Shown here piece by piece: positions 59,451-64,000 of a DNA stretch of 64,000 nucleotides; within the stretch, counting starts at the first letter, position 1; every line of letters begins with the position of its first letter. This stretch comes from Flavobacterium sp. SUN052 (GTDB lineage Bacteria; Bacteroidota; Bacteroidia; Flavobacteriales; Flavobacteriaceae): positions 124,001 through 188,000 of the forward strand of contig NZ_JAPQNS010000007.1 of the NCBI RefSeq assembly GCF_028867935.1. Reading direction: 5' to 3'. The position numbers were made by a program, and so were the translations under genes. The notes beneath the pieces are model-generated. The model did no database searches, had not been told where the DNA came from, and saw only the letters and a program-made list of their open reading frames with translations.

Positions 59451-62400
59451 TAGTCAATACCCGACGGTGCGATTTAGACCTGACACTGGCCTCAATTTCA
59501 AGATAATGCACACAACATTTCAATACCCGAAGGTGCGATTCAGACGCGCGCGCAAGTTTCGGCGGTTTGAGGATGGTATGATTTCAATATCCGACGGTGC
59601 GATTCAGACTTGCGAATCCTCCCGGACAGTTCCACAACCTTACGATTTTAATACCCGAAGGTGCGATTCAGACGATGGGGCCGCACATGACCAAACACCA
59701 CTTAGCCGAATTTCAATACCCGAAGGTGCGATTCAATATTCCAGTCGGAAACTCCAATCACCTGAACCTCTAACGCTTTTCAATACCCGTAGATGCAATT
59801 CAGGCCCGAACCGGACAAGGGGCGACAGGCCAACTTTGCCTTTTAATTTCAATACCCGACGGGGCGATTCAGACGGGGCGTGACGATCCGCTCGATGGGC
59901 AAGGCACCGGATTTCAATACCCGAAGGTGCGGTTCAGACTTGTACCGGGTGTAGGGTTTTCGGGGCATTTTCATGAATTTCAATACCCGAAGGTGCGATT
60001 CAGACAAACCTGTCGTGTAATCTTGGTTTGATCCTCGATGATTTCAATACCCGGAGGTGCGATTCAGACTTCGCTGACCGATTGATCCTCCATCCAGATC
60101 TCGTATTTCAATAGCCGGAGGTGCGATTCAGACTCTACCGTAGGCGAGGCCGCCGTCGGCCATCATCCGAATTTCAATACCCGGAGGTGCGATTCAGACT
60201 GGGTGGTCACCTGCACGTTTGGCCTGACCAACACATTTCAATACCCGGAGGTGCGATTCAGACTGGCAAAAAGTGGATGCCCGCTATGTACGTTACCTAC
60301 TTATTTCAATACCCGAAGGTGCGATTCAGACGAGACGCCTTACACGAGGACTATTGCCGGCTGATCGAGATTTCAATATCCGAAGGTGCGATTCATACTC
60401 ATGAGTTCAAGCATAATCTTGTCCGAAAACCACATTTCAATACCCGACGGTGCGAGTTAGACTCAGGCAACGCCACATTCAGAGCATGGGACAACGCCAA
60501 TTTCAATACCCGAAGGTGTGATTCAGATTACTACGACACCACGATTGGAAAACCTGTCTGGTGGAAATTTCAATACCCGAAGATGCAATTCAGACGAAAT
60601 CGTCCGCCAAAAAGCAACTACTAATCGGCCCAATTTCAATGCCCGACGGTGCGAGTCAGACTAGGCAATACGTTCACAGGCCACTGTATCACTCACATTT
60701 CAATACCCGGAGGTGTAAGTCAGACTAGTACACAGGAGCCACAACCAATGCGCGGTTTCCATTTCAATACCAGAAGGTTCGATTCAGACATTGTCCGAGA
60801 GAATGGGGAGCAGGGTTTGACGTTTATATTTCAATATCCGAAGGTATGATTCAGACCTGGCCATATAACACTTGGGCTTCTTCGATAATGTAGATTTCAA
60901 TACCCGCAAGTGCAATTCAGACTTTGGAATACGCATACCATTCAGTGGCTCAGACCATCGAATTTCAATACCCGACGGTGCGAGTCAGACCAGCAGAAAG
61001 AAGACCTGTTTAACCCCCGCTTCGAATTTCAATACCGGAAGATGCGATTCAGACGCCCGGCGTGGGATAGTTGTTCAGGCGTCATTGCATATTTCAATAC
61101 CCGACGGTGCGAGTCAGACGCCCATTCGAGCTGGTTATTTACCCGTTGCAGCTTCACTTTCAATACCCGAAGATGCGAGTCAGACTTTCATCCGTTTTTT
61201 TGCCCATCTCGACCAATTGATCGACTTTCAATACCCGAAGGTGCGATTTAGACGCTAGCTATCGATCTTAACGCGGCCTGGAATCCGTTATTTCAATACC
61301 CGAAGGTGCAAGTAAGCCCAGGGCTGGATAAATAATTACACCTATCCCTATGTTTTTCAATACCCGACGGTGCGATTTAGTCCCGGTCATCTAAGTAGCC
61401 CTTGTGAGCATTACTACCATTTCCATACCTGACGGTGCGATTCAGGCTTTTTCCCGTTCGTACTGCACGACAAACTGTTTGATATTTCAATACCCGACGG
61501 TGCGAGTCAGATATGTGCAGGTGATGCCGCAGTCGCACGGCTGTTTTGTATTTCAATACCCGACGGTGCACTTCAGGCTTTCACATCTGGACCAATACGA
61601 AGATTCTACCAAAAATTCCAATACCCGAAGGTGCGATTCAAATTAGTCGGTGACACCAATCACCTGTACCTCTAACGCATTTCAATACCCGACGGTGCGA
61701 TTCAGGCCATAAACTCCCGCACGTTTTCAACGGTGAAGTAATCCTTTCAATACCCGACGGTGAGATTTATACAGAGTGGGGTCATCCCTCCGATATGTCC
61801 GTATTTGTCATTTCAATACCCGAAGGTGCGACTCAGACAGGCGGGTACCCTTTACTAGATGTACGATGTGGTGGTATTTCAATACCCGAAGGTGCGACTC
61901 AGACATTGGTTACGTAGAATGTTGACAAACCGCCAGTTATCACTCAATACCCGAAAGTGCAAGTCAGACGCTTTACGAACGTTGTAACCCAGCCCCAATC
62001 TACGTCATTTCAATACCTGACGGTACGATTGAGAGTTTCAGCGAATATGTGCTCCGCGATCTCCGCATAGTTATTTTTATACCCGAAGGTACGATTCAGA
62101 CCACCCACTTTCTCGCAACCAGCGAACCCGACAATCGTATTTCAATACCCGACGGTGCGAGTCAGACAAGGTTTAGGTTTTCAATCGGGAAATCGTCTTC
62201 TATATTTCAATACCCGGAGGTACGATTCGGACTCGGACTCGCAGACAATGTAAATCTGCTCAGCGTTATTTCAATACCAGAAGGTGCGAGTCATACTATG
62301 AAGGGGCGTATTTTCGCATTGACGAAAGCAACGAATTTCAATACCCGACGGTGCGATTCAGACAAGCGACAAGGGACGTCAGGCAAACTTCGCCTTCTAC

Positions 62401-64000
62401 TTTCAATACCCGAAGGTGCGAGTCAAACCATACGCACAGATGGCGGGGATGGCTACTGCAAACGATTTCAATACTCGACGGTGCGATTGTGCCACGCTCT
62501 TGGCCGTCAATTGCCCATTACCCTCTAATAATTCCAATACCCGACGGTGCGATTCAGACTCTCGACATTCGCCCGAAAGCTCCTTGCCCCCGCTGATTTC
62601 AATACCCGAAGGTGCGAGTCAGACCATCAAGAAAAGCCAACTAAAAGGCGTTCTTGCGTTATTTCAATACCTGAAGGTGCGATTCAGACACTCGTTAACT
62701 GAGCCAACAGCTGTGTTCATCGACACATTTCAATACCCAAAGGTGCGATTCAGAGGCTTAGTTCCCATTCCGTTTCCATATCCTTTATGCAATTTCAATA
62801 CCCGACGGTGCGAATCAGGCCTAAAACTTACGCGTTTCGATGTAGTGAGCCTCGCTATTTCAATACCCGACGGTGCGATTAAGACCTTATTGTCCCAATA
62901 AATAAAGTGCTTGTAGCCTTTGTTTCAATACCCGAAGGTGCGATTCAGACCTTAGACGAGTGGGGAAAGTCCCGCTTTCTTGGTTTATTTCAATACCAGA
63001 AGGTTCGATTTTGACGCTTTACGAACGTTGTAAACCACCCCCAATCTACGTCATTTCAATACCCGACGGTGCGATTCAGGCCCTACCTCAAGCCAAACCA
63101 TTTCTGGTGGTAGGCAATCTTTCATTACCCGACGTTGCGATTCAGACAGGCAGGCACCCTCTACTACATGTACGATGTGGTGGCATTTCAATACCCGAAG
63201 GTGCGATTTAGGCCCGGTCATCCAAGTAGCCCTTGTGGGCATTACTACCATTTCCATACCTGACGGTGCGATTCAGAATCCTGCGCACAGATGGCGGGGA
63301 TGGCCACTGCAAGCGATTTCAATACCCAAGGTGCGATTCAGACCGTTCGTTCGGCCCCTAGGTTACTTCAAAAAATACGAATTCCAATACCCGAAGATGC
63401 GATTCAGACTTGGCCGAGAAAATGGTAAGCCGGGTGTAACGTTCATATTTCAATACCCGACGGTACGAGTCAGACCACTCCCACCGGACCCGCTTTAGGA
63501 ACCGGAATTGGATTTCAATACCCGTAGGTACAATTTAGACTGGTAGCAAAAGGCGATGGCAACCAAGTGTCTCAAAAATTTCAATACCCGAAGGTGTGAT
63601 TCAGACCCCAAACTTCACGCTCGCCAAGAAACACTACAACCGTTTCAATACACGCAGGTGCGAGTCAGACAATCGCCATCGATACCAACATCGGGCGTGG
63701 TGTTGTAATTTCAATACCTAACGGTGCGAGTCAGACAGAAGATGGAACTGAGCGGTTTGCTGTCGGCTATTAATTTCAATACCCGAAGATGCGAGTCAGA
63801 CTTGATGTGTACATAGTGGTGTTTGCTCCTCCTTACCTATTTCAATACCCGAAGGTGCGATTCAGACATGCAGTGGAACCCCAACGAAGCGGGTAACTGG
63901 ACATTTCAATACCCGAAGGTGCGATTCAGACCGGTTTTGGCAAGATCAAGATGCCGAACGCCAAAGAATTTCAATACCCAAAGGTGCGATTCAGACGCAG
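59451..64000 (-). CRISPR. CRISPR array, at least 70 degenerate repeats, runs off the right edge
   Basis: I traced 70 repeats (59451-59479 to 63968-63996) of 29 bases (one is 28) and 69 spacers of about 35-40 bases, with a mean unit near 66. On the plus strand the repeat starts ATTTCAATAC and ends GATTCAGAC, with a centre that can pair ACC with GGT. Read on the minus strand it ends ATTGAAAT, the usual 5' tag of type I/III crRNAs, so transcription is probably leftward with the leader beyond 64000. The first repeat (59451) has a damaged handle, as expected at a leader-distal end. No cas gene lies in the window. Long open frames inside are an effect of the ~66-base period. Confidence 0.97.

Follow-up and report, generated by a model that had tools for sequence, protein, structure and literature searches.

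Seven pairs of similar spacers and individually changed repeats in a type I-B CRISPR array without detectable spacer-capture genes

When one CRISPR array holds several pairs of similar but non-identical spacers, do the pairs record repeated capture of the same sites, or copying within the array? This question is raised by a locus at the end of a 64,000-nucleotide stretch of DNA from Flavobacterium sp. SUN052 (the window). A first-pass annotation had listed seven such pairs and had taken them for separate captures from related but diverged phages. We parsed the array, aligned its spacers and repeats, and searched for its cas genes, its targets and comparable arrays.

The array, its repeats and its cas genes

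The array lies at the high-coordinate end of the window and ends 193 bases beyond it:

59451..64000 in the window, on to 64193, minus strand: CRISPR array, type I-B, 73 repeats and 72 spacers

A genome-wide search with the repeat pattern, allowing up to two mismatches, gave 64 matches, every one of them inside this array (59451-64193). The crRNA strand of the array is the minus strand, on which the consensus repeat is GTCTGAATCGCACCTTCGGGTATTGAAAT; it resembles the repeat of Fibrisoma limi. The effector genes cas7b, cas8b, cas3b, cas5b and cas6b, together with a WYL gene, are located on the minus strand past the high-coordinate end of the array (L016:6439-13302). PADLOC profiles matched Cas7b, Cas8b, Cas3b, Cas5b and Cas6b, and Pfam backed Cas3 and Cas6, so that Cas8b is accompanied by the Cas7, Cas5, Cas3 and Cas6 that define type I-B. 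Relatives of the Cas8b protein were found in Spirosoma oryzae (62% identity), Fibrisoma limi and Persicitalea. Going by this protein, the host would probably belong to the family of these relatives, with which the genus label may not agree; the genomes listed under that label are mostly of 2-6 Mb, as compared to 8.1 Mb here. The position of the cas genes and the handle of the repeat point to the high-coordinate end as the leader side, and the high-coordinate spacers are therefore taken as the younger ones. crRNA may still be made and used for interference.

The genes that type I-B systems need for spacer capture (cas1, cas2, cas4) were not found. Pfam profiles of Cas1, Cas2 and Cas4 gave no match at E<=0.001 in the genome, which is 99.99% complete, and the same profiles gave matches in 9, 7 and 8 of 14 control genomes, respectively. 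A Cas1 protein search of the genome, run without a control, was also empty. In two relatives whose loci were read, the gene order is cas7, cas4, cas1, cas2, array. Here 245 bases separate the end of cas7 from the array, and this stretch aligned with the leaders of relatives no better than shuffled sequences did. We read the array as frozen, adaptation having ended and the capture genes having been lost.

The near-identical repeats of type I-B arrays were not seen here. Of the 73 repeats, 62 are distinct (63 if the repeat lacking one base is counted apart), and two repeats differ on average at 4.4 of 29 positions. Altogether the repeats carry 184 changes, corresponding to 8.7% per site and a mean of 2.5 per repeat. 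The changes show neither linkage nor clustering, their counts are Poisson-like (variance/mean 0.87), and no age trend was detected along the array (Spearman 0.12, p=0.32). Copying of changed repeats in a chain was considered and rejected; there was no lag autocorrelation, and linkage was not beyond chance. Columns 2-8, which form the crRNA handle, change at 2.4%, columns 12-15 at 16.5% and columns 19-29 at 10.8%. The repeat at the trailer end has no spacer after it to serve, and it is changed at handle columns 2 and 3, which are intact in 71 of the 73 repeats. At the two ends of the array the repeats have 5 and 7 changes, as compared to the mean of 2.5. Much of the repeat variation lies in column 15, with A to C in 25 of the 73 repeats, and column 23, with T to G in 19. 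Changes from A:T to C:G make up 61 of the 184 and equal in number those from G:C to A:T. As the repeat folded no better than its shuffles, no stem is claimed for it.

The seven spacer pairs

All-versus-all local alignment of the 72 spacers on both strands gave seven pairs with scores of 21-33. The next-best pair scored 12, and the best scores in 20 shuffled sets were 10-13. The seven pairs are thus real and beyond chance; there is no eighth, and the members of each pair have the same orientation. They are the pairs of the first-pass annotation, whose coordinates were reproduced by array parsing and alignment except for the final base of pair 7. There, spacer 58 ends at 63314 or 63315, because the repeat after it lacks one base. 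The members, aligned all-versus-all and compared at their ends unless another basis is given, are:

59739..59776, minus strand, spacer 4, pair 1, taken as older
61644..61678, minus strand, spacer 33, pair 1, taken as younger
59806..59845, minus strand, spacer 5, pair 2, taken as older
62364..62399, minus strand, spacer 44, pair 2, taken as younger
60790..60827, minus strand, spacer 20, pair 3, taken as older
63410..63446, minus strand, spacer 60, pair 3, taken as younger
61383..61418, minus strand, spacer 29, pair 4, taken as older
63214..63249, minus strand, spacer 57, pair 4, taken as younger
61839..61875, minus strand, spacer 36, pair 5, taken as older; TAG in the low-change frame (alignment, codon-phase test)
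63148..63184, minus strand, spacer 56, pair 5, taken as younger
61970..62006, minus strand, spacer 38, pair 6, taken as older
63016..63052, minus strand, spacer 54, pair 6, taken as younger
62429..62464, minus strand, spacer 45, pair 7, taken as older
63279..63314 or 63315, minus strand, spacer 58, pair 7, taken as younger (array parsing, all-versus-all alignment)

At the presumed PAM end the members were in register in all seven pairs. At the far end their lengths were unequal in four (38/35, 40/36, 38/37 and 36/37) and equal in three. No pair is adjacent within the array, and the order of the pairs is not collinear. Five of the seven higher-coordinate members fall within the consecutive spacers 54-60 (p=0.006 for random pairing, tested post hoc). 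These five had been thought to mirror older encounters in a new one; their clustering is borne out and they are probably the younger members, but instead of a mirrored order they show a scrambled one.

The differences between pair members were not spread evenly over codon positions. Over the full length 22 of 34 differences share one codon phase, and in the first 32 nt 19 of 26 do (p=0.008 for concentration of phase per pair, p=4e-5 for one common phase). In the best frame there were 7 amino-acid changes, as compared to a mean of 11 under random placement (p=0.014). The three peptides quoted earlier from the sequence hold: one pair reads DKGRQANFAF on either side despite five changes at third positions, another has ALEVQVIGV in each of its members, and a third has GSNAHKGYLDD in each with two silent changes. 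The codon signal is uneven. Pair 2 (59806/62364) gave a significant codon signal by itself (p=0.0085). Pair 3 (60790/63410) has three amino-acid changes in its best frame, pairs 6 (61970/63016) and 7 (62429/63279) have no silent-change signal of their own, and the sole low-change frame of pair 5 (61839/63148) has the TAG in one member. In pairs 4 and 6 the members are of equal length and differ at two positions; both changes in pair 4 are silent. Calling the sites constrained overstates the case, because a pair can be recognised only where the site has stayed similar.

Two other ideas were rejected. Base flipping by Cascade as the cause of the rhythm does not fit, as the differences peak at 3 mod 6 and not at 0 mod 6 (15 versus 7 of 34). 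A single reading frame for all spacers does not fit either, as open frames are evenly spread over the phases.

The repeats flanking the pair members were as unlike as random repeats of the array, with a mean of 5.4 differences in 29 positions for the left-hand repeats and 4.3 for the right-hand ones, as compared to 4.4 for all pairs of repeats. Those of pair 6 differ at 10 positions on the left and 5 on the right. The right-hand repeats of pair 4 are alike in having two rare letters in common (association p=0.011 among 595 tests).

Target searches and spacer 34

When the array was compared by BLAST with 50,697 phage records, only four short matches appeared, none better than chance (E 0.4-5), and 72,556 plasmid records gave no match. 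Degenerate codon patterns of six of the seven pairs (pair 7 excepted) and of the spacer-34 site had 0 matches in IMG/VR. These scans needed exact agreement and had no positive control, and a later protein search of IMG/VR found 110 relatives of the methyltransferase matched by spacer 34, so that the empty scans are weak evidence. Searches of 398 genomes labelled as the same genus, 222 of the family of the relatives and 390 of the order gave no pair member among the matches listed, and spacer 34 was among them. Two candidates were scored per genome, so array-rich genomes could hide a target.

Spacer 34, which is unpaired, served as a positive control:

61708..61743, minus strand, spacer 34, matching a C5 cytosine methyltransferase gene in other genomes

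Spacer 34 encodes DYFTVENVREFM and was matched with 4-6 differences at six places in five genomes, on one viral contig and in one further genome. In the one locus that was read closely, the site lies in a C5 cytosine methyltransferase gene beside a polymerase clamp gene and phage-family genes. At this site, distinct homologues differ from each other at third, first and second codon positions in the proportion 65:20:9, and spacer 34 differs from its homologues in the proportion 20:6:3. Counted in the same phases, the seven pairs gave 19:4:3, which is like the pattern among the homologues. The eight nearest spacer-34 sites are preceded by CCC or CCA, and farther ones also by CCG, CCT and, in two cases, ACA. 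A PAM is not established from these sites, because the CC-containing triplet is mostly a conserved proline codon. As a guess, a PAM containing CC might explain the codon phase that the pairs share.

All 72 spacers were also scanned against the regions round the matches of spacers 34, 70 and 11 and against 80 viral loci. At the nucleotide level only three spacers stood out: spacer 34 with 4-6 mismatches, spacer 70 with 5 and, weakly, spacer 11 with 8. In the peptide scan of the genome regions no spacer but 34 scored above the shuffled maximum, which was 44. In the viral loci, spacer 16 scored 51 in two loci besides spacer 34, with a control maximum of 46; the peptide of spacer 16 (60529-60566) resembles one in loci L214 and L215. 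The match of spacer 70 (64061 to 64097, past the window end) is in genome G513 (contig C66, L119) with five mismatches. Spacer 26 (61186-61224) has a possible target in genome G864 (L235), where its first 27 PAM-side bases match with one mismatch and the full 39 with 10.

Origin of the pairs and comparison with known systems

We screened 20 other loci with 1131 spacers for duplicates, using a shared-word prefilter; of the seven known pairs this screen recovered six. It gave 23 close duplicates, of which 19 are identical, two are one base shorter and two have one mismatch; 19 of the 23 are adjacent or in collinear blocks. Within the 20 other arrays no other same-strand match scored between 17 and 33 in this screen, which missed one of the seven known pairs. 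Six weaker within-array matches were also listed, with scores of 15-17 and one of 27 on opposite strands. The latter, two overlapping spacers in an active-looking array of Fibrisoma limi (L094), is another kind of same-site capture.

The pairs are best read as separate captures of one site from diverged relatives. Since the targets of the pairs were not found, this earlier claim is inferred from the ends, the codon phase, the flanking repeats, the spacer-34 control and the lack of diverged same-strand pairs of this strength in the screen of 20 other arrays, which largely support it. The pairs have the features by which same-site acquisition is recognised, namely offset or unequal ends, SNPs and different array contexts. 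We consider it probable that each pair stems from two separate captures of one PAM-anchored site in homologous genes of related but diverged mobile elements, and that adaptation then ended and the repeats drifted. The elements would probably be phages, and both captures would have entered one type I-B array while the adaptation genes were still present. Adaptation would later have stopped, with cas4, cas1 and cas2 gone, and afterwards each repeat would have changed on its own wherever crRNA function permits, the spacers much less. The clustered younger members would fit a single later wave of captures, drawn from a diverged relative of something the array had sampled before. The phage source, the side of the PAM, the order of these events and a continued function of the array are what we infer from the locus.

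The features of segment duplication, namely identical copies, adjacent or collinear placement and matching flanks, were not found apart from the right-hand repeats of pair 4. These repeats are the strongest result for copying of repeat-spacer units within the array, followed by mutation of spacers and repeats. Such copying would also agree with the frequency of close duplicates in the other arrays of relatives and with the much changed repeats of this one, but 0 of 7 pairs are identical, and their placement, the unequal lengths in four of them, the codon-phased differences and the rarity of out-of-phase differences (see below) speak against it; we regard it as decidedly improbable. A mixture is unlikely as well. 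The more diverged pairs of unequal length would be separate captures and some little-diverged pairs of equal length (4 and 6, for instance) old mutated copies, which their two differences each and the rare letters common to the pair 4 repeats might suggest; both changes in pair 4 are silent, however, and the flanks of pair 6 are far from alike. Very unlikely, finally, is import of spacers 54-60 as a block by recombination from the array of another strain, which had taken spacers from a diverged relative of the same element. Five of the seven spacers in this block do have partners elsewhere in the array, but repeat variants are unclustered along it, no array with these spacers was among the matches listed from the 222 family and 390 order genomes, and capture of the same sites would still be needed in the donor.

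Between pair members 7 differences are out of phase, where the mean repeat rate would give about 24 (p=4e-5) and the rate of the variable columns 42. For all pair differences, 26 were seen against 35 expected at the mean repeat rate (weak, p=0.06) and 61 at the variable-column rate (strong). The spacers have thus changed less than the repeats, which implies either that selection held the spacers or that the process changing the repeats spared them, as error-prone copying at insertion would. Tentatively, an array that had lost capture may have been retained as an inherited repertoire of immunity that no longer changes its content, with selection holding spacers and handle while about 70 repeats drifted singly; or error-prone copying of repeats may have spared the spacers. 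Either of these, if true, would be a way for arrays to evolve that differs both from normal turnover and from plain decay.

If separate capture is correct, seven same-site pairs in one array would mean that the host met diverged relatives of the same element and resampled the same sites, which bears on the repeatability of spacer choice. What would most likely surprise a specialist is a frozen array whose repeats have diverged one by one and whose spacers have stayed steadier. Variable repeats beside steadier spacers, without detectable capture genes, make selection on a frozen array as inherited immunity testable, and some 60 natural repeat variants side by side are a resource for finding the repeat positions needed in crRNA processing. 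In the open-licence literature, judged from titles and abstract openings, no account of such an array was recognised, which does not prove absence.

The type I-B systems of Spirosoma oryzae, Fibrisoma limi and their relatives are like this one in having similar effector genes and related repeats of 29-30 nt. In F. limi and genome G608, where it was read, the stretch between cas7 and the array has cas4, cas1 and cas2, which are absent here. Arrays in 12 other loci of relatives, like those of the named species, have nearly uniform repeats, with L022 a partial exception among arrays of this type (32 of 39 exact), whereas here most repeats differ. A degenerate terminal repeat is ordinary in CRISPR arrays, according to the part of the source consulted (PMC2886076); the end repeats are changed here too, but the changes span the whole array including the leader end. 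CRISPR-Cas systems without cas1 are reported in picocyanobacteria (PMC11316352) and Pyrobaculum (PMC3396285), and like this one they keep effector genes and spacers without the capture gene. The consulted parts of these accounts do not describe mostly differing repeats beside steadier spacers as found here. For the pairs, the closest likeness is to Sulfolobus islandicus, for which the consulted part of the study (PMC2946923) gives 41 pairs of independently acquired matching spacers, mostly between divergent strains. Those same-site captures also have unequal lengths, offsets, SNPs and different array contexts, whereas the seven pairs here share a single array, have more differences and show a codon rhythm.
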